From Pocillopora verrucosa (taxonomy: Eukaryota; Cnidaria; Anthozoa; Scleractinia; Pocilloporidae), in contig NC_089312.1 of assembly GCF_036669915.1 (NCBI RefSeq), positions 30,351,830-30,415,829 of the forward strand: a stretch of DNA of 64,000 nucleotides, given 5' to 3'. Each line of letters begins with the position of its first letter. Within the stretch, counting starts at the first letter, position 1. A model generated the notes under the pieces. The model searched no databases and was not told the DNA's origin. It saw only the letters and a program-made list of their open reading frames with translations. Below are positions 28,912 to 63,167 of the stretch, one piece after another. The translations under genes and the position numbers were made by a program.

Positions 28912-31900
28912 TCAGGGCTTCTTTTTCCGTGTCCAATAATGTCTTTGTTGTTTAAGAAACATGAGTTCTAAGCCTGACTTAAGTTCGGAGTCTGACGGAA
29001 GATATTGGTCTTCAACCAACTCATCTTCAAAGTCAGCTTCAGTGAGTTCCACTTCATCTTCTGAGGTGGTGAAGCTACTTCTCCGTGAGGACGCCGTGTA
29101 AATTTGTTCATCCAGTGAATCTACGTTGACCCCATCTCTGTTTGACCTGATATGTTTTATGACAACTATACCGACCACTGCCCCCAACACCACGATACCC
29201 AAGACGATCCCAGCTGTTGTTACAACTATTGAGGTCGTGTTCTCGCGTTCGGGGATCTGAAAATGAAAACATGATATGTCACATATGGTTCAGTTGTTAA
29301 CGGGTGGTGGAATTAATTGATGAATCAGTTAGTCGTGATCAGTCAATCATTATATCAGTCGGTCATTAAATCAGTCAGTCATTTAGTTAATCAATCAGTC
29401 AGTCAGTTAGTACGTCAGCCATTCCGTTAGTCAGTCCGTCAGCTGGTCCGTCAGTCAGTCAGTCGGTCATTCAGTCAGTCAGTCAGTCAGTCGGTCATTC
29501 AGTCAGTAAGTCAGTCAGTTAGTCATCTGTCAGTCATTCAGTTAGTCATCAGTCATTCAGTCAGTCAGTCAGCCAGTCAGTTAATCAGGCAGCCAGTCAG
29601 TCAATCAGCCAGTAGGTCAGTATGTCAGTCAGTCACTCGGTCGGTCAATCAGTCAATCGGCAGGTCAGTATGTCAGTAAGTCAGTCAGTCAGTCAGTAGG
29701 TAGGTGAATATGTCAGTCAGTCAGTCGGTCGGTCAATCAGTCAATCGGCAGGTCAGTATGTCAGTAAGTCAGTCAGTCAGTCAGTAGGTAGGTGAATATG
29801 TCAGTCAGTCAGTCACTGTTATCAGCTAAGTTAGTCTAAGCAGTTATGCTATCAGTAGCTAAGTTGATTTTGACTAATACAGTCAATAACTTTAAAGATG
29901 GCTCAAATCATGGCGTGACTGTAAATTAGCATATGGGTCCCCTCTAAATAGGGGATTGGTTTCACATTAAAAGGTGGCGATAATCAGTTTTTTCGATGGC
30001 GACAAATACGTAAGGATCTAGAAAAAAGTTTCCATTAAGGTGTAGGATCCCGGAATGCACTAGTCAAATGCCCCATTGTGTCCCGGCCGGGTCTACACCC
30101 ACTGGTGCATAATAAAAGTATGAAAATAGATTGTATGACATACCCTTATAGTTTTAATGATCGTCTTTGTCCTCTCATTTTTGTTTGTTTCTTTGTTATG
30201 CGGAGCAGTACTGGCAAGGAATGCGTCCATCATTTTCTCGGAGTTTCGCAATTTTTCCAGTTCCTCCAGTTTATCGACTTGTTTGTTTTCCGATTTCGAC
30301 TTGTGCTTTTTGAGTCCATCTTTTAGAATGAAATTCTTGGAAGAAGATGAGCTCTTACTTTTATTATCTGCAGAGACTAAGGAGACAAGACAAAGCGTTA
30401 GCGTAACAGAACAACACGTAAACGAAGGTTGGAGTGCTTTAGCCGTGAAAGATTGCAACTTGACAAAAATTGCTTGTCAATAAGTCTCAAACTTAATCCT
30501 AGGTTTGGTTGCGTAGCCTCGACTAAAAAAATGTGTTTGGTTCATAAATTGCGCTTACGGACTGAAAACCACTAAACAAGAAGTTATCCTACTAATATCG
30601 ATTTCTCTGCTCAGCTCAGTGGCAGTTTATTGTTTACATGGGATACATCTTGGCGACGGACTCCCAGATAACGAGCTGTAAAACTTCCCTGCACTCCTAG
30701 CAGCTAGTAACACCGTATAACCAACCCTCGAACGATCAAGCAAGTCCGCGATCGCAGGTTACAAATTGATTCAAGGTTATATTTTTCCAGCATCTATATT
30801 CCGATGGGAGGGAAGACTCAGACAACGTTTCTTTACCTGGCATCAAAGTGCTGTTTTGTCCCTCCGGTGTGTAGTAACATAGAAAAAACATGTGGTCTTT
30901 GTCTGCTCGGTGTATTCCGAATGGAAATTCGCCACCTTCGTAATCGATATTGCCTCGGTCTTCGTCATCAAATTTGACGAACTCTGTCTCCACTCTCATA
31001 CCTTTAACCTGAAGATAATAATGAAGATATAAATAACTTGAAAATTAATTTTTACCTTAAATTAGTAGTTTTAAAGGTTTACGCGAACGTTGATAAAATT
31101 ATTGTTTTCTTTATGACAACTTACCTTCTGGCAAAGATAAGACTCGTAGGCAAATAGTAAGAATGGAGCTTTGTTGGGCAGAGTGATCTCTTTGCTGGCA
31201 CTACCAGTTGTGCTGCAGCAAAAGAAAATCTTGGAGTCTTCGTTGAAAAGACCTTCGGGTAAGTCTCCGTATTTAGAATTTTTATTGTCCTTGTTTTCAT
31301 CATCCCATATAACAAATCCCTCGTCGAGGCCAGTGGGGCAGCGGGATCCCTTTTTGTAAATGCAGTATTTTCCATCTGGCCATCTGAGAAAGGTTAATGC
31401 GGTGATTAGGAGCTTTTAAACAGAAAAGAGTTAACATGACAAAAAGCAGCATGACGTACAGTACGTAGCCCTTTACACCCTAACATCAGCATGTATATTC
31501 TTCGTACTGTTCTCTATACACTTCCTAAGGTGCTGTATTAGAATTTAGTCAACAATCCTGCAAGAGCTTCTCTATTCGGTGATCATTTCCTTTGTTCTCG
31601 TGATCTTAATATGTGATTCAGGGGTGATATTGTAAGGAGAAATGAGATGTAATAAAATATGTGTTTATTGTTAATCGTGGTGTAAGATAGGAGTTGAACT
31701 TTATTCGCCTTTGTCTCACGATAGAGTCACTTTTGATGTTGATCGCGACGTTTCAACTGCAACACTACTAGTCTTCATCAGGCGATGAGGTCGATTGTTT
31801 ACGTGTCGTTATTTGGGGCACGTTGGTTCGCTGCTATTGGTGCATTTCGATCCTCATTATTATTCCGGTTGTAAGATGATGTTCCCTCATAGCTCCTCAT

Positions 31901-34370
31901 CGATCGGCTGTTGTGTTGTTTGATCGTGGGTATCCAAGCTTCAGGAATTTCGATTCCAATATAGCAGATGAGTTGCATAGAATATTAGTTATTCAAGAGT
32001 AAACTAATATGTACTTCAGTTTACATACCTTCCTCCGCCTGTATCATCGGTTTTAATACAAAATTCATGTTTTATTCCTTCATCGCTGAATTCACCCGCC
32101 AAATGAAAACTGTCAGAATGTTGATTCTCCGTCCCATCATCCTCAGTGTCGTGGAATCGGTACCCAGTCTTCCACTCAAAGCCATCTGCTTTCGGACACC
32201 CATCAACCGGCTTGGGAAGTCCATAAGTCCCGGATGGCCATCTAAGTTCTATTTGAATAGAAAAAAAAAGGAAACCGATGTGATCAATCAGAAACCTGCA
32301 TCGTTTAAAATTTAAGTGAGTACACAAGAGGAAAAACTGGGACATTATTTCCTCTTGGTGTACAGCAATTGGATTAATCTTCTCTTTGTAGCACTTAGAA
32401 ACAGCGACCTGTCATCGCTCTTTGCCTGATGGACTTATTTAAAGAGAATTCAACTTTGCTTTTCATAAATGTTTGGTTAATGTTTTGAGAATTAAGGATC
32501 CATGGGTAAGAACGCGTACTATTTTCCCTAGGAATGTACAGGTAAGATGATGCTGTGAGATCAAAAGTACTCAAAATAAGGGTGTTCTGCTACCAAAAGC
32601 ATTATGACTCTAATTGGGAGAGGTCTCCATGGAAGGCTGACAAAAGACTTTCTTTACAACTCGTGACAACAATGACTATCTATACTATTGGCTACCGCAA
32701 TTTAATTTGAACAAGATTCACAACGACACTCGCCCTGGCCCAGCTAAAGTTTCTTAAGCTTTGTGATTTTAAAAATTCTTGAGATTAGGGGCCGCCCAAT
32801 CCTCGCTACTCTTGTGATTTTATGGTGCACAAAAGTAGTTAAGATTTTTGTTTTATTTTTGTTTTGTCTTCGGGAGCTGAGAATCTCTTTCCCAAGTCAA
32901 TATTTTCTCCTCGAATCAAGAGTTTTCCTCTTATAATCGAGAGTATGAAGGTCGAGAACTTTCGGTAGCACACAAAAAATCGACAATACACAAAAGAAAG
33001 TAGTAAATTTCCCGAACAGAAAGAAATTCTCCATCTTCTTATTCCCATCATGATTACTTTGGTTTTACACACAGTCGTCCCCTTGGAAATACATGGCCAG
33101 AGAATTTCAGGCTTGATGACATCACCTTCCTTCAGTACACTGTTGTACAGTTAGTCACAAATATAATGAGAAAGTAACCTTGTAATTGAACGCCTGCCGT
33201 TAGCAACGCAACTCATGTTCTCGAGTCACCTACTTCAAGGAAAGTTATACTACAACGATTTGCTTAGGCACGGCTCTTTGACGAGTCACAAAAAGCGTGC
33301 TTTGGTAGAAAGTGCATCAGTTTTACGTGCTAGAATTTGATTTCATTTATCATAAGTGCTATCATCGGTGCAATAAGCAAAGTTGGCAATTGCCTGCTAG
33401 CTTACCCAGAGTCGATGTCGGCGAAGAATTGACTGAATTTTTATTCGTTCTTGCGGGTTTTTGTATGTGAGTCTCTCCTTCAACGCTCTTTTTATCCTTG
33501 TCAATTCTTTTTTCTCTTTTCCGACTGTCATCTGTTAACAGTTCTTCAAGACTCACATCTCTTTTTGTTTCCTCCACATTTTTGTCATGGTTGTCCTTAG
33601 TTTCGATGACGCTTTTTGCCAGCACAGGCGCATTCGTGACGGATGAGCTTCTTTCTTGCCGCACGCTGCTGACCGTGCCTAGAATTTGGATCTCTGTCTC
33701 TGGAATTCGCTTTACGTAAAACAAAGGTGCTGCAAGTAAAACATTTGAAGTGGCCCTGTCATTCAAATCTGAAAACCATAGCATGTATGTTAAACGTCAA
33801 AGATCTCATATTTCGCAGTTCGTTGCCAGGAAAGAAAATAATTTAGTGCTACCAGTCTCTACAGCTTCTAATTATAATGCATACTACTACGCGGGGAAGA
33901 ACTAACCAAAGCGACATTTGTAAGGTAATTTTTTCGTTTCCTTATCATGGAATCTTTTGATTTGCTTGTCACCTTGAAAGTAGCACCTACTTCTTCATCT
34001 ATCTCTAGCTGAGTAAGTGATTTTTTTAGCAGCAACTTAAACACAAGTTTGCTTATCATAGAATCTCACATTCAATGTGGCCTTTACTTCGTCCTTCAAT
34101 TCTAGTCGAGTGAATGGTATTTCACCAACGTTAATCCTTTCACTTCATAACAAACTCAGTTGGCTGTCTTCTAAGACAAAACATGCTTCGATATAGATGA
34201 ATGGGCTGTGATGTGATGCAGACACTTATCTTAGCTTCATCATTTTAAATTTCGTGCATGCCATTGAATTTAAACTTTGTTATTATACAATGTCAGTTAC
34301 CTAGGTCATATTCCACGAAAAGACAAAGTTCCAACAGTGCGAGGAAAAGAACTTTGAAAGCAAAAGTCAT
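28912..34370 (-). CDS. ApeC-domain type I membrane protein (ApeC-minus)
   Basis: Seven minus-strand exons join in frame to 553 aa: 34370-34301, 33768-33406, 32248-32029, 31383-31125, 31008-30837, 30376-30144 and 29256-28912. Residues 1-19 are a signal peptide (MTFAFKVLFLALLELC). Residues 24-145 are charged and low-complexity, with RKREKR at 106-111. The ApeC domain covers about 148-355: WPSGTYGLPKPVDGCP, FHLAG, EFCIKT, WPDGKYCIYKKG, FFCCSTTGSAS, VKGM, FDDED and CYYTPEG, with all eight conserved cysteines. A lysine/serine-rich stalk with a short heptad segment (about 362-439) leads to a TM helix (about 448-472) and an 81-residue acidic cytoplasmic tail. ApeC proteins in other invertebrates (apextrins, amphioxus ACPs) are linked to microbe recognition; the ligand here is unknown. 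The gene lies head-to-head with the second ApeC gene. Confidence 0.82.
29290..29820. repeat. GTCA/CAGT tetranucleotide microsatellite with 88-bp tandem copy
   Basis: More than 500 bases of imperfect CAGT repeats in the last intron of ApeC-minus. Within it a stretch beginning TCGGTCAATCAGTCAATCGG at 29641 recurs at 29729, an exact 88-base (22 x 4) period running to about 29816. It is a simple repeat expanded by a larger duplication. Confidence 0.9.
31727..31800 (-). repeat. Possible retroelement 3'-end remnant
   Basis: On the minus strand the segment reads CCTGATGAAGACTAGTAGTG, then GTTGAAACGTCGCGATC. Segments of the form 'CTGATGAAG ... GAAACGTCG' recur near the 3' ends of interspersed retroelements (Penelope-like type) in many invertebrate genomes. 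No ORF accompanies it. The family call is from pattern memory and weak. Confidence 0.25.
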
Positions 34371-38246: not shown

Positions 38247-41200
38247 ATGTTTTGGTTAACTTTATCACTGGTGGTTTTCTGGTGTCACTCGACCAAAGGT
38301 AAACTATTTTAAGCTAATAGTGTTGATGAAATCCCGCTTGAGCTTTCCTTAAAAAAAAAAAAGATTCAAAGCGAATCACATGTTCCAAGTATTATTTTTG
38401 GAGCATAACCAAGTCTTCTCTTACCGCTGGAAAAAAGATAAGAGACGAACGTTTAATAAGCTAAATGATGAATCGTTTGCAGTAGCTCAAAGATTTTGTC
38501 AAGTCTATAAGGAAGATTATTTTTCTCAGATGACGATAAATAGTCGCCTTTGCTCGAAACAGTTGAGCAAAGGTAGGTTTGCATTTTAAAGCTGAGAAAT
38601 CATGGCTGCCCTACATGTATGCTATGTATCATGGGAGACTCAATTTATATACACTGAAGATAAGACTAAATACGGCTAACTAAGAATACAGTTCCGAGTT
38701 TTAAATTTGATGTCGCGTGCAAACACAATGCGCTTCTCTGCAGCGTTGTATGCTGTTCAGTCCGAGAAAAAAACGATTGAATCTAGGGCAACGCAAAAAT
38801 ATACAGCCTTGCATTTTCTGCAGCTGAGTAACCTTCCCTTTTTTATTCTATTACCTTATAACCTTTTATTGTTGTTTTTAGGAAAAGTTTCATGGCCAAC
38901 CGGTAAATATGGCCTTCCTATGCCCAAAGCGGGATGCCCGAATAATTGGTTCGAAGGTCGAAGATTTCACGATGATAAAACTGGTAACCTGGTCGACCGT
39001 GAAGCCTATAATAACCTACACTTGGCTGGCTGGATTACTAAAGAAGGTATGGGTAGGTTAAATTAATTTCTCACTGGCACTGCTCAACATTTTAGATCGG
39101 TTCCTGCAGCCACAAGCTGGTAAGACAAAAACACGCAGTAGCTGCCGATCATGGAATAGGAAGATGTGAAAACGATAGATGCCGTACATAGAGCGGTAAG
39201 ACGGCGGTAAGGGGATGCCCACTCAGAAGATATGTTTCATACTGTCAAGAACCATTCCGCAAGCTTGGATCATATTTTTTTTTAGTATTTTTATTGCTTT
39301 GCTATAGGTATTGAACAAGACTTTTGTATCAAGACAAGTACGGACAAGACACAGGATTGGCCAGCAGGAAGATATTGTATTTTAAAACACGATTCTTGTC
39401 CAGTTGGATTCGCGGATGGGTAAATAACCATTATGTCATCTTTGATATCATTGGGGCACTAGATATATTTTAAAAGCTACAATTCTGTAAAGAGAGTTCC
39501 TATTAGGCTTCCAAATGAAAGCAATTGCAGATTTTTGCTGGTTAACTGGACGGTAATTCATAATTGTTTTTTATCAATTTAATTTATTTATTTTTGTTCG
39601 GCGTGTTGTTATTTAAATTTACAGCTCCGTCCTTTGGCGTCCAAAATCTTCCAGCTTCCAAGACGCAACTGTCAATGGGAAAAAGTTAAAAGAAAGAACA
39701 GTTAGCTACTGTTGTAGTACCAGAGGTGAAAGTTATTTTACCCCTTTTAAAATTAAAATCTTAACCAAACGTGGAGGTGGATATAGTTTAAAATAAGCAA
39801 CATTATTTCGCGAACTTTCTTTACACGTGGACTTTCCATTCGGCTATCATCTAAATTTACACCAAAACATTTTACTAACACGTTTCAACACTAACTCAAG
39901 AAGGGTTTCAGTCCACGACAAACTTTTTTGACAACTAACATCCACGTGCCCACGTTCCCAGTTAGATTGAAGTTTATGGTGAACTGCAGTTTGCTACAAT
40001 ACTAGTGGGTCCCTTCCCCCATTCTATGGTTGCACAATCACAGAAAACAAAATGCCACATCGTACACGAGTAAATAGATGAAACAAAAGGTGTTAGGGAT
40101 GAAACTGGTATGCTATTCCCAAATATTGCGATCTCAGTGGTGATGTGTCGACCGTTTTGTCGCTGATTGTAGCGTAGGAAAGACCATGCAGGAGACTAAG
40201 GTTGACTCTCGCTATTCTCTATCAACTGTAACAAAGTTTTGGTGGATCCGGCTCAAGTTACGATCCCTTGATGTTTCAGCCTTGCAGTAAACACTGTACG
40301 TCTTCACATACCTCGTTAGATCTCCTTAATTTCAAGCCTTTGTAACTTCCTCTCCTACAGGTGAAATTAACAGTTCTATTTCGCTTCCACTCGACAAGCC
40401 TTTCTACTTGTACTCCCTGAGTGGCGAAAATTGTCAGCAAGTCAAAGGTGCAACACTAAAAGAGGAAAGTGTTAATTTCGATAAGAACGTTGGCAGATAT
40501 GAAGTAAGCATCGAGGGTAAAAATCCATTCCAAGTGGACACGCATGGATCACAGATGAAACTAACATATTGCTATTATACTCCAGGTGAGCATATCTGCC
40601 TATGTCCACCTTTTAAAATAAATTACGTTAGATATTTACATTCGTGGTTACAGCGGTAGGAATCGGATATCTGTTTCCGAAGTACAAACCCGGTCGGCAA
40701 AAATATAGCAGAGTTGACTTCCCTCTAATCCGATCGATCGGTTACCAGAAGTTCATCGGGAGAATTCTTCGAGGAAAGAAATTTCGGCCATGTTTTTAAT
40801 TCTACCAATTGCTGGTCAGGAAAACGTTTTGTGTCTCCCCATTTACTTAATTTCACACGTTCTAAATAATTTCAGATCTGCATGTCAAAGAAAGCACACA
40901 AAAACCGAAACACCACGGATGATAAACATAATACATATATCTTATTAGTCGTTTGGGTGTGTAGTATCACTAAGTATTTTTGCGAGTCGTGCCGTATTTT
41001 GACGAGCCCGTAATGCGAGTCAAAATACAAACTACAAGTAAAAATACTCAGCGATACAACACACCAAAACGTCTAATGAGTTATTTATTATCCAAATTTT
41101 TTTTCTGCTAATTTCTCATAAGGCAGGAAAGGCAAAGCAGAAAGAGAAGCGTAGCGCGAGCAGCTGACTGGTCAGACTGGTCTTCTTACAGCACAAAATA

Positions 41201-41850
41201 ATCAACTGTCCAAATAACCGTACACTGAATGTCGTAGGATATTCGTACTCTATGCGTGCGTTATTTGAACTCAACTTTGTGCAACTGGATAATAAAATCC
41301 AAATAATAAACACCTTTTACTCATTCAATAGATTAGTTATCCCTTCCCCCACGAGGGTCTGCAAACTCAGTAATTCTCATCACCCCGGCCTCTCTGAAAT
41401 TTATTTTGACGATTAAGCTCTAATTTGTAATTAATAATAAAATTCTTATTGGCATGAGCTTAGGTTTTACCTCGGCATTGCGCGCTACTCATTTTTGGAA
41501 CATTTGCAATTCTCGACCTCTCTTCTTCTTTTAAGGTGGAGCTATAGCAATCCCAGAGAACCAAGAGGTCGAGAAAACGCTTTTCACTGGCGTAAGTATT
41601 TTTTTTAATGCTCTTCGGGGTCATTTCTGCTTTACCTTTACCGCAAGTTGAATACAATTCAGTTTTATATTCATTTCAGTCTGCATTGGACAATAGCACC
41701 CAGTCCTCGGGCCTCGCTGTTGCTATAGGTATTGGGATTGCATGCGCAATGGTGGGTACAGCGTCCATTGCGTTGGTAACGAAAAAACTGTTCAGGAAAA
41801 AGACAGATGGTGATGATGACGATGACGAGCCAAGACCTGACGATCCATGA
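38247..41850 (+). CDS. ApeC-domain type I membrane protein (ApeC-plus)
   Basis: Seven exons join in frame to 293 aa: 38247-38298, 38882-39046, 39308-39419, 39625-39725, 40361-40585, 41536-41591 and 41680-41850. The start gives a signal peptide, MFWLTLSLVVFWCHS. The ApeC domain covers about 22-217: WPTGKYGLPMPKAGCP, NLHLAG, DFCIKT, WPAGRYCILKHDSCP, VSYCCSTRGEINSSISLP, CQQVKGA and YCYYTP, with the same eight cysteines as ApeC-minus. A short stalk (220-237) leads to a TM helix at about 248-271 and a tail ending in an Asp-rich run. Unlike ApeC-minus it has no long charged N-terminal region and splits the ApeC domain at different positions. Likely surface-displayed, with a carbohydrate- or microbe-binding role inferred only from other ApeC proteins. 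It is 3.9 kb from, and divergent to, ApeC-minus. Confidence 0.82.
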
Positions 41851-42508: not shown

Positions 42509-43128
42509 TTATGTTCGCGAGAAAGAGTGAGCAAAAATACAATTATGCCGTTGGTTTTTACATTTCTTTATCTGCGCATGAGAGAAATGCTGTTGATTGC
42601 AAAAAATGATTGGTTGTGTAAACCACTGTTTTAGAACTCTGTCAACGGCAGTCAAATCACTTCGTCGTTTATCACTACTGAAACATTTACATACACGAAA
42701 AATTTGTCCTTTGGCGGCCCGCTTTAGTTCTTTTATCCTCCAAAAGTAGATCACAGAATGAATGCAGGAGCTCCCTCCCAATAAAATTATTAATGTCATG
42801 GTGCGGCCTCTCTTGTTGTTAGATGTTCTTATTGAAAGGCTGAAAGGCAAATAGCAAAGTACAAAAGCTGCTACAATAAAGAGAACTTTGAAAAATTTAT
42901 TTTTCAAGCGAGCTGCATCGTATGTTGCATTCCCAGTGGCTTGTAGCTGGATATTGATTTGAGAAAGGTGCTGTCGCACGACCAGGAACTCTTTCAGATA
43001 GCACAAGCATGTTATGGAGATTCCAATGAAGATAGCGATTCTATGTGCCAAAAGGAAACTCCTTGCACGTGTTCCTGTAACAGTCACCAGAGAGGATTAT
43101 CCAAGCAGTCAGTGAAACCTTAGCTTCG
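42509..43128 (-). pseudogene. Truncated rhodopsin-type GPCR remnant (TM4-TM7)
   Basis: The open part (43087-42509) encodes a TM5-like helix (RIAIFIGISITCLCYL), an intracellular loop, TM6 (VLFIVAAFVLCYLPF) and TM7 (SSCIHSVIYFWRIKELKRA), then a Cys-rich tail. Just upstream, in another frame, KVSLTAWIILSG looks like TM4, and a TAA blocks the reading frame. No TM1-TM3 with GN or DRY motifs is visible further up. It is probably a 5'-truncated, frameshifted copy. An alternative is a second exon after an acceptor at CTGTTACAG with its first exon not recognised. The layout resembles cnidarian orphan class A receptors, which are usually intronless. Confidence 0.5.
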
Positions 43129-45310: not shown

Positions 45311-46444
45311 CTACTCTGAGATTGTTTCCGTGATAGAAAGATTCTGTTTGGTTCGTTTTTGCGACAGAAGGGAAATCTTTTGACCCGTGGTAGAGTAGCC
45401 AACTGTGGTGTTCGTGCCATTATCGCTTTCATCAAGACAGCAAACAATTGCCTTTAAATAGGAAATAAATCCCCGACGAAATTGTGTATTAAAAACGTAA
45501 TAAACAAAGGAATTCACTGCACAGTTTGACTGCGCCAACAACTTGGCAACTATTCGGAATACTTCGATATTGCATTGACTTTTACTGCCGGTAGTTCTGA
45601 GAATAGCCAGAACAAGTAAGGGAGAAAAACATAAGAAAAAGATGACGACAATAGTAACTGACAGTTTTAAAATGTTTTTGTTTTGCTTCGCGCGGCGGTT
45701 TCGCTGAGTTTGGGTCATGGAATTGCCGGCACCGAGGGGAAATTTTCGGCGGAACAACTTATAAACAATAAATACATACAAAATTATGATCGTTATTAAC
45801 GGAACACCAAACACCAACAAGAGAATTAAATAAAAATAGATATATTTGCTGTGGAGTGATGTAGTCTTTGGCCACCTTTGACAGCAGTATAGCTTGTCTT
45901 CTACCACGCACAATTTGAAGACTTGAAGATATGGCGCATGTAGACCAAATGCTGTGAGCCAGATAGCCGGAATCACAAACCTGATATAAGACTTCATTGC
46001 ATTTGCTTTCAAAGGGAACATCACCGCGTAAAATCTGTCTGCTGTTATAGCGATGAGGCTTTGAACAGAGACAGCATTGGACACATCTTGGAAGAAATAC
46101 GCGAGTTTACATAGGATCAGTCCGGCTGTGCCGTCAATAAGCCATCGTTCTCTGCCCACCAGCACCTCCACGATCATTCTTGGAACGGCAAAGAAGGGAA
46201 CAAGAAGGTCTGATGCAGCCATGTTAACGATAAGGAAATTGGAGGCTGTCCACATGCGAGGGTTCCGGTAGACGATCAGAATGATAAGAGTATTTCCCAC
46301 CAAAGAGAGGATTAAGATAATGCAATACGCTGTTGTCAGCACGGCTTTTGACACCGTTCCATCGCCAGTAACTGGGCAGACAATTTGAGCATTGGTCATG
46401 TTCTCCAAAGAGGAATTTCTTAAAGATGCGTTTATCGCATTCAT
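45311..46444 (-). CDS. Intronless class A (rhodopsin-type) GPCR, orphan
   Basis: A single 377-aa frame has all seven helices: TM1 about 35-59 (GN at 50-51), TM2 about 68-90 (ASDLL), TM3 about 111-137 ending DRF (136-138), TM4 about 153-175, TM5 about 201-230, TM6 about 258-283 (FFLCFSP instead of FxxCWxP) and TM7 about 297-319 (NSFVYY instead of NPxxY). Cys112 and ECL2 Cys187/188 provide the usual disulfide. The N-terminus has three N-glycosylation sequons (NAS, NSS, NMT). The C-tail has a CC pair for possible palmitoylation and a Ser/Thr-rich end. Overall it resembles peptide- or amine-type receptors expanded in cnidarians; the ligand cannot be inferred. The ATG is the first in-frame start before the glycosylated N-terminus. 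Confidence 0.9.
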   Translation of the reverse strand: MNAINASLRNSSLENMTNAQIVCPVTGDGTVSKAVLTTAYCIILILSLVGNTLIILIVYRNPRMWTASNFLIVNMAASDLLVPFFAVPRMIVEVLVGRERWLIDGTAGLILCKLAYFFQDVSNAVSVQSLIAITADRFYAVMFPLKANAMKSYIRFVIPAIWLTAFGLHAPYLQVFKLCVVEDKLYCCQRWPKTTSLHSKYIYFYLILLLVFGVPLITIIILYVFIVYKLFRRKFPLGAGNSMTQTQRNRRAKQNKNILKLSVTIVVIFFLCFSPLLVLAILRTTGSKSQCNIEVFRIVAKLLAQSNCAVNSFVYYVFNTQFRRGFISYLKAIVCCLDESDNGTNTTVGYSTTGQKISLLSQKRTKQNLSITETISE

Positions 46445-49400
46445 TTTTGTATCCAGTTTTCTTCAGAAGCGGAATTATGAATTTATGTTTCTCCCTATGT
46501 TTTTAGTAGAAATTGAGTGTTTCTTGTCACGCCCAAGAGAGAAGCTCCGTTAAGTTCTGCCGCGAAGCGCCAACTGCAACTCCTCTTTCTTAAATTTAAT
46601 AAAAAAAACATAGAAACGGCCAGCACTATTTGCATTTCGATTAATCCGCCATGAGCACACCCTGTGGGACATCAATTAGTCATCGTGGAAAAGGCTTTTC
46701 AATTCTTAACCAAATGGATCTTGTTGTGTTTGGACCTTTGCCTCTAAATAGACCCGATGAGAATTCCAAAGTCAATTGCAATTACAATATGTGATCTCAA
46801 TTGGCTGATTCCTGTAATGCAACAGGAAACCACTAAATCGGTACTTATCTAAAATTCCACGTCTGTGATGCTCGTTCGATTTTTAACCGTTAATATAGCC
46901 TGCGGCTCGTATTTAAAGAATTTCCGTTTGATTTTAACCCCCTTGTTCGACGATGGCATCCGAATGTTTTTGCAATTATGTTTTGCAAAGCAATTACATA
47001 ATTTATATCTTGGTTGATAAAAAATTCAAATACACTTACTCACACAATAGTCTGGCAATAGCACTTAGATGATATTTAAGAAACGACAGGTTTTCTTCTA
47101 TTTTGCTTTCCTGGCGTTTTTCCCTAGGAAGGTGTTTTCAGTGGGAAGTTTTCAAGCTATTAACTCCCGCACTCATTGTGCACTGAAATACTACAAGTTT
47201 ATTTTCAATTGACAAAGTAAACAATATCACTTTTATATAAATTTTTTACTTTATTTTGAAGTAAAGGAGGAAATTGACTTTTGTAAACCAGATTTACATT
47301 AAAATGTTTTTCCAGAAGCCGTATTTCAATCAGCATTTTATCACTCTTACAAGGGAAACATTGCACGGAAAAGTTATGTATTAAAAGGTAACCAGGATGT
47401 ATTTACATTCAAGGCATTTCGTATAACACTTCTTGTTGTAAATATTAGCAAATATGTAGGGAGTGTTGCCTATTTATTGTTTCTTAAACAACATTCGATC
47501 TTGAACAAAACTATTTACCTATTTTTGAATCAACAAGATTATCATTGTTTTGATCAAAGAGTGTGAATGAACTTAACAGACACTAAGCTCTCGGGTGTGA
47601 ACTGAAAATGCGCTTTGCTACTACACTCGAGTCATTATAGTTTGTACCGTTTCTATTTGGTACAATTTAATCAACCTAAAACCTTGGTTTGTTTTATCGC
47701 TGTCAAAAACAAAGTATATCATCGCTTGCCCTACTCAAAAATTACAACGTAATAGCATGATTTGATAAAATAATGTCATTATTTATTCATATACCATTAG
47801 TTTTATTTACAATTTACGCTCGCACATCAAAATAGAAAAGGCCTTTAAATTAAGGCAGATTCGTATCCAAACGTTGGGAATTCAACGGAGTCCGAAAGTA
47901 TACAACGATAAAAAGCTAATTCTTCATGAGTAAGAGGATGGCCCGAATTAAATTAAAAAAAAAAAACGATTTATAAACTTCTGGCTAACTTTTACAATTC
48001 TACCATCTCTCATCTAAGCTATTTTATTCTATTTTTTTTTAATTCTGTAAGTCACAGCAAAATAAATGTGTTCGAAAATTTTAATCTAGCATTTTGATAT
48101 ATATTGTTAAATTTCCAAAAATTATATAAATAAAAAAATAGCAACCACGAAAACGCCTGATTCTAGTTTGCTGACTCAAGGCAAAAAATTTACTTTTGTC
48201 TCCGCTCAGATCTTATTTCAAAAGAGTGGATGCTTCTCTCATCTGGTGGAGCAATTCATGAAAAATTCGTGCGTGCTTTGCATGTGTATACATATAACGC
48301 CTTCATATGTAATATCTAATTTCATGTTTAAACTTCTGGGTAATTCACACTTGGCTTTTTAATTTTTTTTCGATGAAAAAGATTTTACAGTAAAGTGTAA
48401 ATACACTTCACCAGTCACTTTTGATGCAGAGAAAGCCAGAAAAAAACTTATCGCAGACAATTTTGATCAAACTAAGGTATCAGAAATGTTAATTGAGTGG
48501 GCATCTTCCTCTTAACTTTGGTTGCCCCAAACTGAAAGCGTTTCTGAATTCCAGGCTCCCGCCTTCAAGAAGAAGAAACTCTTTATCTTGTGTCTGTTAT
48601 CGTATCGACCTCCATCCATCCGGGTCCTCTACACAACCAAAAGTACACATGTTGAGAAACATCTAGTATTCGCCAGATAATCATGCATTGGTCGCACATT
48701 CATCGCGCACAATCCTCGACTACGGTTAGATTTGCATGCTTAAGTCTACATTTAATAAATTTATGAAAATTAAAAAAAAAAGAGATACAGATTGTTTAAG
48801 TTGTTCAATTTTCTTTACGAAAATGATGACTTATGATCCAGCACTTTTTATCGAACACTGGCTTCCTTATTATGATTTGAAAATGTGGTTAGATTTGAAG
48901 CTCCATTTTGCACCAGGGATCGGAGAGAAAGGAGCAGTGATCAGTATTGTGAACTCTATGCTATATTTGTATTATTAATATATGGTCAGGTAGTCTTGGG
49001 GTAAATCTGAGCGATCCTTTTGGTTCTTACTTGATCGAGATTTTTCAATGCGGACCATTTACACGAAAACGATCATAAGCCGTGTATTCGTGTTCGCCAG
49101 CGAAAGCCGACAAATTTAAAAATAAACAAATTTGGTCCGAGTGACCTATAATACACTGTTTACTAGACTCTCTTTCTTGAGCAGTACTGGGGAACATTGG
49201 CCCTCTATCGTTTTTGTACGGACATTAGCACGCTCGGTTCGCACTACCACAACCTCGGGCTACTCAAGCTTACTCAGTACGGCCATCGTGCTCGGTTGGT
49301 AAGAAATAAAGTTATGATTCAGGCCATTTCCCAAGTTTTCGTCCTCGAAAACTGATAGCTTCAATGGTTGAAGCCAGGCAACTGTAGAGACGAGGTCATG

Positions 49401-50823: not shown

Positions 50824-53800
50824 TTACGTCTTGTGTCTGATAGGCGATCTAAGTAGTTCATAATTTGTAGATTTTTTACCCAATATTTTGCGTGCGATAA
50901 AGGCCACTGTGGCTGTTCCAACAATTGCCGCTGCCACTCCGCAACCAATGGCAACAGCGAGGGCCGAGATGGATTCAGCACCTTTGGAAGGAATCTGGTG
51001 AATCTAAAACAACATCAAAATCAAGTGGCTTTTAGGAACGTGTCGTAAAGCTGAGAAGCCAACTTAATGCATTCTAACTTCGTTTAGCAGCATCATAACA
51101 ATTATTAAAATGATTTCACTGGACATGAATAGGTGTAATGAAAACTCGCAGGAGTGGTAACATTTGTTTTAAATAGAATGGATATATAAAGAAGCATAGC
51201 GGAAGCAACGAATTTCAATTACATGGACGTGTGATAAAGATTTTTCCAAGATGAAGATGAAAAATCGATAGAGAGACATAATACCTTGATATCCATTTCT
51301 GCCTCTTGGTCCATTTTTGTAAACAATACTTCTCCTCCTGAAGTTGAATAAATTTTCCTATCTAAGAATGCCAACGAGAAAATTATCACACAGCTATTAC
51401 TTTGATGTTGCATAGTCTTTTTAGTTACTTAGATGAATGACTCGTTACAGCCTACACTTGTTGTCAGATTCTTCACATATACAGGACAATTATCTCAGTT
51501 TAACAAAGGAAAAAAGTGAGAAACTTAACAACTATGCTGTTCCCTATTTAGGGCCCACGATCAAAACAGGACCGGGAGCATTCAGTTGGACTTGAGTTGT
51601 CTTTTGCTCACCTCCATTCGTTTTGTTGCAAAAGCGCCCTTCCCATCCAATCTCACAATAACATTTCGTTGAATTGGTTGAATTATCAAGGCATCTTCCA
51701 TTTTGACATGGTGGGTCACATGTAACTGTAAAATATAGGTTAGGAATGTATTATCACCTAGATGCTTTGGAATTTTAAACCTGATGTGACCTTTTGCTTG
51801 TCTTGGAACCACTGGTGTGATGAAATTTCTGGATTTCGACTGTTCATCTTTGTTCTCTGTGGCGTTCCCAGTAAATTCCTGACTCTCATACAAGTCAAAC
51901 TACCGTCGAGAAATTTGTGATGGGCCATTAATTGTGATAAGTTCCAGTCGCTGATAACATCTTTAAAGAAAAAAAAGGAAAAAAAAGAAAGCATGATGTA
52001 CTTACGTGTTTTATCGCAGAGGTGCCCAAAATATCCAGGCTCACAGACGCATGTGTCGTTGAAGGAACATTTACCATATTCTCCACAGCCGGGTAAACCA
52101 CAGAAACCTGATATAAAATTTTGAGGTCTGCATATTAGCCATTCATAAAAGGGTCACGTTAAAGGAAGTTCACATCAAAACAAAGACTATATGACAGTTG
52201 GTAATTTGGTATTAGTACTATCAACTAAGTTGACAACATAAATTGGCCACCGTTAAGACTTTCCAAGCTGACGTTGATGATACCAAATTACCTTGTTATA
52301 CTCTCCCACCAACGCAGCACCACCTTTTCTTTTGAAACTTACCCCCTTTATTTATACGGTAGTTGATTTGTTAAGTCAAGCACTTTGCGAGTCATCTAAC
52401 AAACGCATGGGAAACCAAGCACAGAGCTGCCATCCTAAGCGCCTAATTTACTTTTAAAACTCTTATGCCGAGCTTGTTAAAAACTGGGTCTTTGCTCTTG
52501 TCTTTTTTGACTGTGTCCGTTGTTTTATCTCTTTGTCAATTCGTTATTTAGTTAAAGGGTTCCTTGGCTTTTGTAATGTGCCATGTGTACGTTCTGTCAA
52601 GTTTTCCCGACAATTAATGAGGTATCGGGTACTCTGGAACTCTAGGGGCTATTTCTGTAAGAGTTTAATTGGCACCCTTGGTACCTGAAGCACCAAGGGG
52701 AAAGGACGTCGCATCTTTTTTCTCGCTCGTTTTTCTTTTGGCCATTACTTTACTTATACTATCAGTTCACCTGTGATAGCAGTATCATTGCAGTTTGTTC
52801 CATCAAATCCTCGGTCACAGGTGCACTTGTCTTTAGCTGTACAAACTCCCGATACGCACGGAGAATCACAAGTGCCTGAGAAACGAAACAAATGAGACTC
52901 AAAGAAACTGAGGTAAAGCTTCAATAATCGAAAAAGGTTTGTCCAAAATTTCTCCTTCAACAATCTTAGGATATAACTCAGTTAAACGATTTTATTTTTA
53001 AAAAATACCTTTATCCTTAGATCTCTTGCCATTTCTCGTGTTCATGTAGATAATAGTTGGAGAGATATGTTCATCTTCCATGGGGACACTCTGACAAAGT
53101 TCATCGCCATAACACTCTACAGAGTGACATGTGTCATTCACCAGGAAAGCAACTTCGCAATTTTTTTCTGCACAACATTTATCGATACAGTCCTCGGCAC
53201 TTTCAACAATTCCAAGTTCTTTTACTTCTCCAGCTGTCCTTCCTCCCTTTAAGGTGTGTTTGGCCATAATTCTGCTAGGTATGCACATGTCTTTTAAGTT
53301 GTGGGCTGTTATGTCAAAAGAAAAGTACGAAATATTAACCATGGTCGTGTTCTAAATGCATGATCTATGAATACAGACGATTAAGGCTGTACGACTGCAG
53401 CAGCATAAAAGACATTGGCCTTACATTCGAAATCCTGGCTTTATTCTGTTTAACGTCGTGCGTATGGCTCTTTTTTTCTTGTTTTGTTTGCATAGCAAAT
53501 GTTTGTTAACATTAAAATTCAACTGAGCGACTAAGTAGGGCTTGGAGGCTAATTTAAAACAACGTAGTAAACACTGATTTATCGAACCCTTTCGCACAAA
53601 TTGGTCAAAACCTCTGACAAATGTTTCCGCGCTGTAGGTTGCTTCGTTCTTCAACCAACAAATATGACCACATTATAAGAAAATTAACTCTTCTAAAAAA
53701 TAACTTATTCAACGCATAATTTCGATTCAAACTGTACCAACAACAAGAACACTTTACTTGAGCATGCCACCTCGACGAGCGCTAGGCTCGTTAGAATGCG

Positions 53801-54877
53801 TGCGTGCTTTTATTTGGATTTGATTTTGCTTCGCCTCCAGGACTTTAATGACGCACTTAACAATACTTGCGAAACAAAAGGGCGTACATACTGTATTTTG
53901 CCATCCCTTGTGTTTTCTTAAACTGTTCCAAATCATCCCCTTTGCCCCCGCCTCGAACCACGTGAGATATCCTTACGCTCTTATTGGCTGCAGTGGATGG
54001 CACGGCAGGAATACTTTCGCAAAGTTTTTCACTAAAACAGCTCACTGAATAGCACACGTGACCCGGCATGAAAGCCACGTCACACTTTTGGTCCTGACAA
54101 CAAGCATCAATACATGTCTGCATGTCCCTAAGGTAACCAAGTTTGGTAAAGTTCCCGGATTTTATTCCACCACGTAAAGTGACGTCATGTTTTATGTCCA
54201 AATGAGTACACGTAGGCAACTTGACGGTGTCCAGAACTTGCGCGTTTTCACCTTTTTGGTCCATGAGGAACATTTGGAAAACTGCGGCGTTGTAAATAAA
54301 ATCGTTAAACTGAATACCTCCTGCCCTCAAAAGCTTATTCTTAATGAAAAATAATTGCTTGAATGACATAGATTACGTTCTTTCCCTGGGACTGAACTAA
54401 GTTTTTAATATAACTCAGCAAGGAAGGGGAAAACAGTTTGATACCCGCCTCTAAAAACATTTGTCAACAAAATTTGTTACTCCAGACATCAGAGCCAGAA
54501 TAGAAGTCAGATCTGTAGCATGTTAAGAAAAAGGTTTTTTCTGTTGGATTTATGCCACGAGTGGGAACCTGAGAGCCTGCCTGATATTTCGCAAAGAAGC
54601 AGGAATTTTCGTACAAAATTCATGAGGGGATTTTAAAAACAATGTAAATAACTGACCAACGAAATAATATCCTTCAAAGTTTTCTATCAGAAAAAATAAA
54701 TTTTTTTTCACCTCAAAGCCCCGAAATGAGCGTTGTTTGCAGAAATTCGTTTGGACAGTATTGACGGTGTCAGACTACCTAGAGCGTGTTAACTAAGTGG
54801 TTACAAAGGCACATACCTTGACCTCTAGTAGACTTGAGTAACATCAGATAGAGCGGGCACAAAATATAATGAAGCAT
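50824..54877 (-). CDS. Type I membrane protein with two MANSC-like and three EGF domains (MANSC-A)
   Basis: Eight minus-strand exons join in frame to 433 aa: 54877-54817, 54281-53892, 53305-53009, 52875-52771, 52107-52006, 51725-51612, 51337-51285 and 51003-50824. Residues 1-19 are a signal peptide (MLHYILCPLYLMLLKSTRG). MANSC-like domain 1 starts at C45 (CIDACCQDQKCDVAF, CYSVSC) and domain 2 at C157 (CIDKCCAEKNCEVAF, CHSVEC). Each has eight cysteines in the C...C..CC..C...C...C...C spacing of the MANSC/MANEC family (HAI-1, MANSC1, KIAA0319). Three six-cysteine EGF domains follow at about 251-285, 286-318 and 320-356, one per exon and all phase 1. Then come a 17-codon stalk exon, a TM helix (387-411, starting SALAVAIGCG) and a short basic tail with a YELL motif. 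Probably a surface adhesion or recognition protein; partners unknown. Confidence 0.8.
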
Positions 54878-57800: not shown

Positions 57801-60579
57801 GGTTTTCTCCAAGTTTCTGGACAATGTTTCCAGAAGAGATTCTTAATTTTATGAGAACCTCTTCAAATGAAGGAGCCATTCCCCTGCATTCCTGAGAATT
57901 TTCTTTTCGATTAGTGTTAAAAAGAAGAGGGGTGCTCCTCCAGGAATCGTTTATTTTTCTACAGCAATAAAAGTGTATACTACTGAAAAAAAGCTATTGA
58001 CTTTGGATTATGATTCCAAAGGGAAACTAACTCTCCGAAAATTGCTTCAAATATACTTGAAACCCGATTATGATTGCGGCCGCCTTGAATCTGATTAAAG
58101 CAGGTTTTCCGCCACACTTGACATCCCACGACTCGAAGCACTTTGCAGCAACGAGAGCGAAACAAAGAAGTGAAATAAAAAAGCCAACGAAGGTGCAGAT
58201 TCGGGAGATGAAGGTTGGAAAAGACTGAAGAATAGTGTATGGTCCCCCATTACAGATAGCTTAGTGTGATGCACGCAGCTCAGACCGTCAGAGGTGGTTT
58301 ATCTTTACAAGTAGTTTTCATTGGTTGAGAAAAATGTACAATTTCTGGATTAAATTTCCGTAAGGAAACTATTCGGTATTAACTTTTTGTGCGCAAAAAC
58401 TCGCTTGGCTAACAAAGGGAAAAGAAATTGGCGCAATCTTTTCAACGACACATTAACGAACGATTAGAATGAAAGAAGATCATCATGCCTCTTTATGGTA
58501 GTGTTTGCTATTTTTCCGTAGACTTCGTTCATTGTCGTTTAATACATGACATAAAGCATGGAATAAGATCGAAGTTCACTTACTGTTTTTAGAGCCCTCT
58601 AATTCTCCGATTATGCCCATCTCGTTATTTCATTTCATTCACCGTTCACTTGGATCAGTCACAGGCGGCTCAAGCTCCAGCTGTGAGACGATCATCTTTC
58701 GTCACTTGGCACCCGTTACTTGGCACCCGTGATTCTTGAACAATTTGTTCATGTCGCGTGACGGTGTGGTCCCCGAGGAGGCTCAATTTGCAAAGGAGTC
58801 AGGGTTACCAGCTGGATTTCAACGGTTGTGTATCGTGGCGAATGTGAACGGGGGTCGTTAGAAACGTCTAAACTGGAAATTTTGGAAGCAAACTTCGGCT
58901 TAGCGTAAGTTTCACGGGGAGGATTGAGTTGGTAATGAATTGAAATGAAACTGCGATATATGTGCTTAGATTCTGCGTTGGATTTGTGGCCGCCTGGTCA
59001 TTTTGAGCTTGGATGTTTCGCTTCTCGGATCGGGCGTTCACAAATAGAGTGTGCAGCCTTAGGCTTCCCATATGGTTAGTAAACCTAGAATTAGATAACT
59101 CGCTAAAATGGCTTCAGATAACAAGCGACGCACTGTGGAAGTAAGGTAAGGTATTTTTATTGAGAATTTGACTGCATTTTTTTTAATCCCTCAGAGAGGT
59201 CGTAAATATTCATACAAACGCCATGACTTGTATTTCGCAAGATGATCATTTCACAGCTGGAGCTTAGGCCGCCTGTGGATCAGTAAGCTTCGATCATACC
59301 ATTTTTATCATGATTTATTCTCCACCTAAAAAAATAGCTTCGTTTGACATCTGCTTGTACATTTTTTCGTTAATAAAGGAGCGATTAGGAATATATTAAG
59401 CCACACAACAGCCTTGAGAAGCCGAAAATATCGTTCAAGATACATAGATTTAAAATACTTCAAATGGAGTCGTAGCACGTGGTCTTCTTGTTGCAAGAAT
59501 TTTGGGGTTAAACAAATACCAAAAAACCCCACAGGTTTCACTAACGGGAAGGGGGATCCAGACTCCTCAGAGAGTTGGTGGATAACGAGATTTGTCCCAT
59601 GACCAAAAGCCGGTTTCAGTCCGGTATAAAACAGGAAATCCTTGTTGGAAAACCTTGTCTGCTCTCTCTTCAAATTTAAAATTTGACCATTACTGGAATA
59701 ATCTATTCATAAAAAGTCGCTGTATCTACGTTGTTGTGTCGTAGAATTACAAAGAGAAAAAGAGATGCGATTTATCTTTCACATTAACTGTTAAAGCTTC
59801 TACGAATCTCGATTTGTATCCCAAAATAATTCTTGCCATAAATGTAAAGTCAGCTGAATGTTTGTTTGGCCAGTAAAAATTACGCGCAGTAAATAAATGT
59901 TGAGAGTTGCGCGCTATTTCTAGAATGAAACTAACTTATTGAGGAGTTTATACAAATCAATATATTTTAAATACGCTTTACAAAAATATATTTGTTGCGA
60001 AAAACAATTCTTTTCCCAATTTGACACTAACGTCTCTTTACAGGAGCACAATCAAGGCCCGCAAATTTCATTACCTGAGAGCAAAATGACTAGATATTCC
60101 AGCCAAGAATATGGCTCAAAAGTAAATGCTCTTTCCCGTGGTGCGCAGTATAGATTTACCGTTTTTAACAAAACTTTTCGTATTGAATACATCAGGTCAA
60201 AGCGATAGATGGTTTTCTTTTTGCGCCTTCCGGTAACCATTTGTGTTTGGAGAAGGTCCGTGCTAAAGCTCCTGTTAGGCCCTAATAATCCCTTTAAAAG
60301 CCGTTCTGACCAGACTGGGACCATGTGGTCCCACAAAAAACATTGATGAAAGCTGGTTTACGGTAAAATCGTCCAAATAAATGTCACCTGACAGCAGGTC
60401 AGTCTTCCTGGAAATCATGGATTTTCCATTTTCTTTCTTATAGCACCTGTGGCCAGCTTTGCAAATGAAATCTACTCAGGATTGCGTTTCCTACCGGCCA
60501 GAAATTGCAGTAAACTAGGTAAAGATTCTGATGACTGTAGTCCTTTGAGCTCGAGAAAAAAGTCAGTATTTTTTCTCCC
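54878..60579. other. Intergenic region between the two MANSC genes
   Basis: The left edge should hold the MANSC-A promoter. Apart from one possible plus-strand first exon at 59108-59145, no coding or RNA feature is supported; the short open frames on both strands lack known domains. Confidence 0.45.
59108..59145 (+). other. Possible isolated first coding exon
   Basis: ATG followed by MASDNKRRTVEV and two overlapping donor-like sites (GTAAGG at 59141 and GTAAGG at 59146). It would be the start of a plus-strand gene. Joining to the acceptor before 60043 gives only a 27-residue peptide ending in TGA with no recognised domain. Kept as a weak candidate. Confidence 0.15.
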
Positions 60580-63167
60580 TCAGCTTGAAGTTTCCGCTTT
60601 GTTGTTGTCAATCAAACGTCTTGTCATCACAATTACGCCAGCCACACCTACTGCAACAGCCACCGTCCCGCAACCAATTGCTACCACCATGTCGATTATA
60701 TCAGAAGAACGCTTAGTTCGTTTGGTTTTGCCAGTCTAAAAATACATACAGAAACTTTTTGTATTCACGTAAATAGAATCACAATGTGTATTGAACGAAG
60801 ACTGAACAAAAATTTCGCTTTTTTATGACGCATTACAATGCAGGTTTTGTGAAGATACATAAAAGCTATGGACGAAATGGGTGCTCTAAAAAACGTTCTC
60901 TTGGATTTTCTCTGTTTGAGCCTTTCGCTAAGCGTCGAAAATGCGAGATTTTCATTAACCATAAGCAATAAAGCCAGTTAAAATTAGCCTACAAGTCCCA
61001 TAGGTACTCCTTAATATGAACAAACAATGTAGGCAAGGTGCACCTTATATCGCTTGGAACTGGTTCGGCCTCTAGTGATTTGCGGTTCACTGAGCCTTCG
61101 ATGCTTGCAGGAAATTTTGAATTATATTTGTGGTTTTTGTAATTTGTTGATATTGTTGGTGATTTAAAGCTGGACTCTGGAGTAGGATAATATTTATGGT
61201 GGTTACATGTATATTCAGGTAAATTTTGCGATCAACATAATTCCTTGTTTCAAAAATTTTTATTCCGAAGACCAACAATGAAATATCCAAACATTTTACC
61301 GATTACAGTCTAAACCGCTTGTTTACAAGAAGCCTTTTAAGCACTGCTGTCAATGACCCCACCCCATTGAGACCCTCGTATAACAACAATTTATGTAGAC
61401 ACAATCATGTAACCTACCCCAAAAGCTGTCACTGTGGTCATGTCGTCATCTGGGTTTTCAACAATGAAAGGTTCCGTGGTTTCAATCCCAGAAGCTTTTT
61501 CTTGAAGGTTTTCTTCAAGGGCAGGTTCCCCCTTACCCTCTCCTGTGTTTAACAACAAATTTGGTGTCATTTGTTGTGAAGTATTCAGTTACTAAGTCAT
61601 GATTTTAGTGATTTTTTTATATTTAGCATTTAGTTAAGATTAAAATTCACAGTCCGAAGTCACTTGAATCTAATTATCATGATGACATTTCTAAGTTTGA
61701 CTGTCTTGTTCAACTACAATTAGTTTGTCTCCCCACCTTGCCTTAGATTCGCACTTAGGTTGTCCTCTTTGCCTTTACATTCAACGAGTGGTTGTGTGAT
61801 TAAGCATTAAGTTCGTTAGTTTTCATACGTAAGATTGCCGTGAAAATGTTTGGGCTATTTTTCTGACATCAAATATTTAATCTTCCATGCTTACCGATGG
61901 TGAATATGAAAGCAAGTATCACAGAGCTCAGAATCAGAGATTAAGAGTCAATCAGTTATTTAGAAAAAGAGTAAGAGTCATAGTCAGCCAGAGAATATCA
62001 AAGAGAAAATCCGCTGTTAGTAGATGAACAGCTATTAGAGACTGAGAGACTGAAAAGGTCAGGTCTAGATCTCGGTGCTATGCGTGGTGCTGGCGCCCTG
62101 CAGTTTGTTTCTCCCTAACCATAGTGTAACACATTTTTAAACAGTTTTGATTAGATATTTTGGACCAAGTCTGGTCGGTCAATTGGCCAGGTATGGGTTT
62201 GTTTAACGCATTAACGCATACTATACTTATAACGGTGATGCTATCCTCGGCATTACTATCATCATTATAATATCGTCATCATCATCATCGCTACTTTATC
62301 GTGTTACTTGTAAAGCTAATTCATCTTTTTTTGGAAAGTGTTTGAATTAATGAAAACCTTCTTACCTTTGGCCTCTTTTAGTTTTGTTTGTGAGACCATT
62401 GAAAGCATCGTGTCAAATTTGGGATTATCAGACTTCTTGAGGTCACATGAGTCAGAATTGTGACACTTGACTAAATAACAATTTTTGTTGACCATAAAAG
62501 CAACGTCGCATCTCTTCGATCCACAACAGTGTTTTACGCATCCGTCCATCTCTTTAATTCCAACCATCTTGTAGTACTTCCCAGCCTTGGCGCCCTTACT
62601 GAGGGTCACATTGTAATTCACTGAACTTTTCCTACATGGTGTCTTGTCAGATGAGATCAATTCGAGTTTTGCGTCTAAAACTAACATGGAAAATCAATGC
62701 AGCTATGTGTGGGTCAACATACATAACCTAATACCATAACCGCACTTTCTAACAGATATGTGATGAAAAGAATGATCGATTGATGGATTAAAACTTGATT
62801 AAAAAAAACTGAAATTCAAGAAACGTATCGCTGTTGGTAAGGAGAATCAAAATTTACCTCTTCTTTCATCTGTCTGATAATCTAGGTTAGCCATCATTTT
62901 CATGACACATTAAAAACATTATCTCCAGCATAAGTAAAAAAATTAGGTTTGTTTATCATTAAGAAGTAATTGTAGTAGAGAAAGACTCTAAAAAATAATG
63001 GTGTTGAGAAAGGCTACCAAAAGAGACAATTCACAGATGTATCACTGAGGCATAACCTTTATCTCCATTGCGAAGAGAAAACAACGCACAATAATTTGTC
63101 TTATCTCACCTACTATACTGCATAGCGAAAGCAGAAATAATAACACAAGATTTAAAGCGCACTCCAT
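60580..63167 (-). CDS. Type I membrane protein with one MANSC-like domain (MANSC-B)
   Basis: Four minus-strand exons join in frame to 215 aa: 63167-63110, 62674-62366, 61542-61418 and 60735-60580. The first exon is a signal peptide (MECALNLVLLFLLSLCSIV). Exon 2 (21-122) carries a MANSC-like domain with eight cysteines: PCRKSS, then GCVKHCCGSKRCDVAFMVN, then CYLVKC and SCDLKK. It is clearly related to both domains of MANSC-A. Exon 3 (124-164) is an acidic, Thr-containing stalk (EENLQEKASG; NPDDDMTTV). Exon 4 has a basic juxtamembrane run (KTKRTKR, 167-173), a TM helix at about 177-201 (DMVVAIGCGTVAVAVGVAG) and a short tail. No EGF domains, unlike MANSC-A, which lies about 5.7 kb away on the same strand, so the pair looks like a local duplication with domain loss or gain. 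Confidence 0.8.

Follow-up and report, generated by a model that had tools for sequence, protein, structure and literature searches.

How do neighbouring genes with unrelated ectodomains come to end in similar membrane anchors? The question is raised by a 64,000-nucleotide stretch of Pocillopora verrucosa DNA (the window, C1:30351830-30415829 of a genome whose 52 contigs total 353 Mb), which holds four receptor-like genes, ApeC-minus, ApeC-plus, MANSC-A and MANSC-B. An earlier note on this DNA had proposed that all four share one C-terminal cassette, a stalk exon followed by a terminal anchor exon, which local exon shuffling had joined to different ectodomains within 35 kb. We find that ApeC-plus and MANSC-A have, by sequence comparison, clearly homologous last exons, that MANSC-B carries a likely homologous but diverged relative, and that ApeC-minus shares the layout only, its last exon being at chance level against the other window anchors. 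The set is also not confined to 35 kb, as copies lie in an ApeC gene 9.7 Mb away (ApeC20), in an exon to the right of the window (X) and, weakly, in a further ApeC gene (ApeC3). We consider it fairly probable that exon shuffling placed an anchor from one ApeC subfamily in frame behind MANSC ectodomains, and we infer that this event was a local one.

The homology was assessed by aligning eight anchors with one another, 28 pairs in total, and shuffling each pair 5000 times while preserving the separate compositions of pre-helix part, helix and tail. ApeC-plus, ApeC20 and MANSC-A form three core pairs, whose scores of 124, 121 and 95 were reached by no shuffle (0/5000 each). The two higher scores are those of ApeC20 with the other two members, and the score of 95 between ApeC-plus and MANSC-A compares with a top shuffle of 64. 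MANSC-B is tied to MANSC-A (score 69) and to ApeC20, each score being reached by one shuffle in 5000, and only weakly to ApeC-plus (score 54, 28/5000). Thus, of the helix alignment of three genes in the earlier note, the pairing of ApeC-plus with MANSC-A stands, while MANSC-B joins it as a diverged relative. In all three window anchors the helix is single, rich in small residues and marked by an A-x-x-x-G motif with a further Gly seven residues on, a pattern from which the X anchor deviates somewhat.

That the anchors are unrelated and the small-residue helices alike by convergence is very unlikely. Ala, Gly, Val and Ile are indeed abundant in these short helices, chance-level scores occur in several pairs (an anchor neighbouring ApeC20, that of MANSC20, with all seven others, and ApeC-minus with the other anchors of the window), and silent sites are largely saturated. 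Against convergence, the three core scores were never met by shuffles that keep the helix composition, and the likeness of ApeC-plus to ApeC20 continues through the tail to the stop codon. Furthermore, genome-wide matches are confined, within the sensitivity of the tool, to ApeC/MANSC loci, which sets the helix likeness of the earlier note apart from that of chance small-residue helices.

These genome-wide searches used single proteins as queries against all six frames of the genome, with E values up to 10. The MANSC-A anchor gave four matches, itself and three other places, the best being ApeC20 (55% identity, E 2.1e-8), followed by ApeC-plus (E 7.3e-5) and X (E 0.48). The best foreign matches of MANSC-A are ApeC genes, and they find it reciprocally when the ApeC20 anchor (four matches, self and three) or the ApeC-plus anchor (three, self and two) is the query. 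Self-matches aside, the three core anchors gave eight matches, all of them at ApeC-plus, ApeC20, MANSC-A or X, and these sit at two loci, both of which hold ApeC and MANSC genes; the two matches to X (E 0.48 and 1.4) are not significant singly. The MANSC-B anchor found only itself.

More diverged anchor copies may exist, and profiles pointed to two places outside the window. When 5768 open frames of selected loci were scanned with a profile built from the three window anchors, X (E 0.0025) and ApeC3 (E 0.0067) came up, and no others below 0.01. With ApeC20 added as a fourth anchor, and with loci that repeat part of another omitted, 10854 frames from 324,797 bases gave X at 7.9e-5 and ApeC3 at 0.0046. 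In the pairwise comparison X was reached by no shuffle against ApeC20 and MANSC-A and was weak against ApeC-plus (55/5000), and ApeC3 was reached by none against MANSC-A, by 9/5000 against ApeC20 and, weakly, by 140/5000 against ApeC-plus. From these scores, ApeC3 weakly appears to belong to the anchor family. The same anchor occurs in other ApeC genes, ApeC20 and weakly ApeC3, whereas the seven pairs of the MANSC20 anchor all stand at chance (at least 1079/5000). The MANSC20 anchor was rejected as a diverged copy on these scores. As a genome-wide query it recovered nothing beyond itself and a single match at E 5, which gives no sign of an anchor common among MANSC genes either. No cassette was seen in the searched downstream stretches of ApeC genes on contigs C5, C9, C10 and C12; on C8 and C4 the coverage comprised 1.5 kb flanks of five and two ApeC genes.

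The X anchor may be, judging from its sequence context, an orphan copy of the cassette. It lies downstream of a PSMD13-like gene (Rpn9_C 7.1e-5, below the cut-off), and its 20 kb neighbourhood contains no ApeC or MANSC match that could serve as its ectodomain. Among the listed same-strand open frames of at least 42 residues, 58 of 82 were covered and gave no convincing extracellular domain; one open frame nearby matched Cys_knot at E 0.0012. A narrow scan of L009:3196-6000 for an exon with at least three cysteines, phase 1 to 1, found no ectodomain exon.

The ectodomains in front of the core anchors are unrelated, as had been claimed, since they are assigned to different Pfam families. The ApeC domain (PF16977, cut-off 26.5) was matched by ApeC-plus with 166.5 bits (9.3e-49) and by ApeC-minus with 274.5 bits (8.2e-82), and the whole-genome ApeC exon search places it in the ApeC20 and ApeC3 genes as well. 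The cysteine-rich 'MANSC' domains fit KIAA0319_N (PF23597, cut-off 27 bits) best, with 56.4 bits (2.7e-15) over two stretches in MANSC-A, which also matches EGF families, and 43.9 bits (2.1e-11) in MANSC-B. For MANEC (PF07502, cut-off 25.5) MANSC-B is above the cut-off at 28.1 bits (2.6e-6) and MANSC-A below it at 23.9. KIAA0319 and KIAA0319L carry PKD domains after the N-terminal domain, and a published abstract mentions the PKD domains of AAVR. As no PKD domain is among the Pfam matches of MANSC-A or MANSC-B, these are not KIAA0319-type proteins, and MANSC-A differs further by having EGF families instead.

The gene structures show how one anchor could follow such different ectodomains. We built the four gene models by hand, all introns being GT-AG, and in these splice-consistent models the stalk exons lie where the earlier note had placed them. 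Each stalk exon begins in phase 1, ends in phase 0 and is followed by a phase-0 last exon that codes for helix, tail and stop (Table 1). Every modelled ectodomain block ends in phase 1, so that the stalk and anchor unit fits behind any of them in frame. The stalk exons of the core genes ApeC20, MANSC-A and ApeC-plus measure 50, 53 and 56 nucleotides (nt), sequences that appear too short to claim homology. Shared phases alone are weak evidence because MANSC20, the MANSC gene at 20.7 Mb, has identical phases with an unlike anchor. What resembles an exon-shuffled module is the combination of phases that permit in-frame insertion with a homologous anchor (ApeC-plus, ApeC20, MANSC-A) beside non-homologous ectodomains. 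In the reading that we favour, the anchor would first have been part of a membrane-anchored ApeC subfamily, in the form of a unit of two exons, a short one for the stalk (beginning in phase 1, ending in phase 0) and a terminal one in phase 0. An intronic recombination, either ahead of the stalk or ahead of the anchor, would then have linked this anchor to MANSC ectodomain exons, presumably at a locus where ApeC and MANSC genes lay at most 10 kb apart.

In the whole genome, ApeC exons gave 66 matches and KIAA0319_N 75, grouped into 9 and 10 clusters (MANEC-only places omitted and two groups on C13 merged for the placement test), and at two loci the ApeC and MANSC genes are no more than 10 kb apart, the window locus, with 9 kb from ApeC-plus to MANSC-A, and 20.706-20.712 Mb, where ApeC20 is followed by MANSC20 on the same strand. 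When the clusters were placed at random 20000 times, 11 trials produced at least two neighbourhoods of this kind, so the two loci probably share a history, or their neighbourhood is kept. The same proximity, at most 10 kb at both loci with core anchors, would fit a history in which an ancestral gene carried both ectodomain types before one stalk and anchor and its duplicates lost different ectodomain exons while inheriting the anchor; the phase-1 boundaries before the stalk would also permit clean loss of either block. We regard this history as unlikely, as no two-domain gene was seen in the stretches examined and as the ApeC and MANSC genes at 20.7 Mb have separate stalks, anchors and stops.

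At the DNA level, strong similarity between anchors of the window is confined to ApeC-plus and MANSC-A. The anchor exons of this pair reach an alignment score of 28, where 1000 shuffles gave at most 14, compared with 14 for MANSC-A and MANSC-B (reached by 4/1000) and 11 for ApeC-plus and MANSC-B (88/1000). When the gene regions of ApeC-plus and MANSC-A were compared, the sole BLAST match was the helix (41706-41801 with 50968-50873, 66%, E 4e-6), and the introns gave none. At E up to 0.01 two further matches appeared between gene regions, one around the first ApeC exons of both ApeC genes and one in the MANSC exons of both MANSC genes, and there were no more. ApeC20 and ApeC-plus match over 154 columns of anchor DNA through the stop codon (63%, E 2.6e-6). 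These data bear on gene conversion, by which the anchor of MANSC-A (or ApeC-plus), already present with similar intron positions, would have been overwritten by that of its neighbour. ApeC-minus and MANSC20 have the same layout with unlike anchors, so intron positions can predate the sequences, and codon sharing between ApeC-plus and MANSC-A is slightly above expectation (same codons at 10 of 18 identical residues, expected 5.6, P 0.024, one of five pairs). Conversion is nevertheless improbable: the DNA match ends inside the exon and the introns are unmatched, and conversion inside the window alone leaves the family unexplained because ApeC20, 9.7 Mb off, is at least as similar to both genes (124 and 121 versus 95) as they are to each other.

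The direction of transfer is weakly supported. In a tree of 18 ApeC domains, from which partial or near-duplicate domains were omitted, a branch with support 86/88 separates the three cassette-bearing domains from the 15 others, ApeC-plus being long-branched; after removal of ApeC-plus, ApeC20 and ApeC3 group at 91/87 and ApeC-minus joins them at 88/86. Based on these groupings the C-terminal layout tracks one ApeC subfamily, and the anchor probably does so too. Among the 20 ApeC last-exon tails listed, nine end in a stop at most four residues from the conserved CYY, which resembles a secreted protein; in two of the nine (L001 and L043) the codons could be a splice donor. Because of the ApeC tree and these secreted-type tails, and with the MANSC tree uninformative, transfer from ApeC to MANSC is slightly favoured.

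Several observations weigh against the proposed joining of an ApeC anchor to MANSC ectodomains. The splice junctions are those predicted from the DNA letters. Branch supports in the ApeC tree are moderate, and the tree of 15 MANSC domains has no supported branch. A G protein-coupled receptor (GPCR) gene separates ApeC-plus from MANSC-A, and ApeC-minus and MANSC20, neighbours within the two loci, have no recognisable anchor copy. Comparisons of X with MANSC-B (742/5000), X with ApeC3 (867/5000) and ApeC3 with MANSC-B (391/5000) cannot be told from chance. The sensitivity of the whole-genome search was limited, as the MANSC-A query missed MANSC-B and ApeC3. Finally, codon sharing at identical residues is as expected in four of five pairs; the joining event is thus old and the case for homology comes mainly from protein likeness.

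ApeC-minus was rejected as a cassette member on sequence. The scores of its last exon against ApeC-plus, MANSC-A and MANSC-B were reached by 1615, 1362 and 4809 of 5000 shuffles, its best pairs, X (42/5000) and ApeC20 (205/5000), are not significant among 28, and as a whole-genome query it found only itself. Weak signs of kinship are a DNA score with ApeC-plus reached by 23/1000 shuffles, located at and past the helix end, and a rank of 8 among 11323 frames in a six-anchor profile search, the first after the family (E 2.5). The anchor of ApeC-minus may have been replaced or have diverged strongly. By eye, the last intron of this gene contains a long run of imperfect GTCA repeats at window 29320-29830.

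ApeC-plus, MANSC-A and MANSC-B are predicted type I membrane proteins, in which signal peptide and ectodomain precede a single helix flanked by a short stalk and a short tail, and may function as surface receptors with a common helix-packing anchor. The small-residue helix might pack with another helix, itself or a shared partner, and different ectodomains might thereby be mounted on one membrane complex. A stronger proposal, that the anchor is a functional plug whose helix was selected for packing with itself or a shared adaptor behind unlike recognition domains of this lineage, seems doubtful to us; if it were true, shared membrane complexes would bring ApeC and MANSC receptors together, and further receptors would come about by joining any phase-1 ectodomain to the anchor. 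Were the anchor to direct pairing or signalling, the receptor set could have been widened without new signalling parts. The anchor also offers a small sequence tag for finding more receptors of the set, and the locus a concrete, traceable case of one membrane anchor common to unrelated surface-protein families, in which possible donor and recipient are still close together.

CEACAM genes likewise carry the anchor on a separate terminal exon in a multigene receptor cluster. Their ectodomains belong to one superfamily, in contrast to the different Pfam families of ApeC and MANSC. ApeC-plus, ApeC-minus, ApeC20 and ApeC3 share their ApeC domain with the ApeC-containing proteins (ACPs). As far as the portions available of the ACP papers go, peptidoglycan binding by ApeC has been shown in amphioxus and molluscs (PMC9585378, PMC8361754), and by analogy an anchored ApeC protein could be a surface sensor of bacteria. 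Those portions describe tests of secreted short forms, and they mention no architecture with an anchor common to MANSC genes. One of the two papers, in the part available, describes ApeC as active in domain shuffling with more than 20 architectures, so that exon shuffling involving ApeC is not new and the novelty here is moderate. In Stylophora, according to the accessible part of the source, one immune cell type shows enrichment of transcripts for secreted ApeC proteins (PMC8162421). MANSC-A and MANSC-B resemble the MANSC/MANEC proteins through their KIAA0319_N matches and, in MANSC-B, that to MANEC. Cnidarian MANEC proteins (NSP5 of nematocysts) have been published, some with a predicted transmembrane domain, and MANSC is traditionally assumed to help protein complex formation (PMC6134521, consulted as an excerpt). 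Our literature search, partial in coverage and thus no proof of absence, found no paper linking ApeC with MANSC, MANEC or KIAA0319.

Table 1. Modelled genes, their exons and neighbouring features. Positions are those of the window unless preceded by C1.
Feature	Position	Strand	Details
ApeC-plus gene	38247-41850	+	7 exons, 293 residues; splice-consistent model
ApeC-plus signal peptide exon	38247-38298	+	
ApeC-plus ApeC exons	38882-39046, 39308-39419, 39625-39725, 40361-40585	+	
ApeC-plus stalk exon	41536-41591	+	56 nt, phase 1 in, 0 out
ApeC-plus anchor exon	41680-41850	+	phase 0: helix, basic stretch, acidic tail, stop
MANSC-A gene	50824-54877	-	8 exons, 433 residues
MANSC-A signal peptide exon	54817-54877	-	
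MANSC-A MANSC exons	53892-54281, 53009-53305	-	
MANSC-A EGF exons	52771-52875, 52006-52107, 51612-51725	-	
MANSC-A stalk exon	51285-51337	-	53 nt, phase 1 in, 0 out
MANSC-A anchor exon	50824-51003	-	phase 0
MANSC-B gene	60580-63167	-	4 exons, 215 residues
MANSC-B signal peptide exon	63110-63167	-	
MANSC-B MANSC exon	62366-62674	-	
MANSC-B stalk exon	61418-61542	-	125 nt, phase 1 in, 0 out
MANSC-B anchor exon	60580-60735	-	phase 0; likely diverged family member
ApeC-minus gene	28912-34370	-	7 exons, 540 residues; anchor not detectably related
ApeC-minus exons before stalk	34301-34370, 33406-33729, 32029-32248, 31125-31383, 30837-31008	-	
ApeC-minus stalk exon	30144-30376	-	phase 1 in, 0 out
ApeC-minus last exon	28912-29256	-	phase 0: helix, tail, stop
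X anchor	C1:30418467-30418679 (L009:2638-2850)	-	2.6 kb right of window
X stalk	C1:30418961-30419025 (L009:3132-3196)	-	65 nt
ApeC3 anchor	C1:30443292-30443423		two stalk exons before it, 80 and 48 nt; about 25 kb right of window
ApeC20 stalk	C1:20710484-20710533		50 nt
ApeC20 anchor	C1:20709844-20710014		
Rhodopsin-type GPCR, single exon	45311-46462	-	7tm_1 4e-40
BTB-BACK-Kelch gene	18964-21148	+	

Near the GPCR gene, an open frame at 42512-43096 looks GPCR-like by eye and has no Pfam match. A paralogous block joined by the BTB gene of the window and one at 20.70 Mb was considered and dropped, as the frame there appears by eye to be BTB without Kelch repeats, versus BTB-Kelch in the window. 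The gene content of the window (ApeC, MANSC, GPCR, Kelch) agrees with an anthozoan. On C5, at 23.42-23.44 Mb, tandem KIAA0319_N domains lie in one stop-free open frame of 6668 codons, by its sequence a putative giant, intronless-looking MANSC array. The window also contains a tRNA at 27340-27451 on the + strand (Rfam, 52.9 bits), which ARAGORN in its bacterial setting missed and which, at 112 bases, probably bears an intron.

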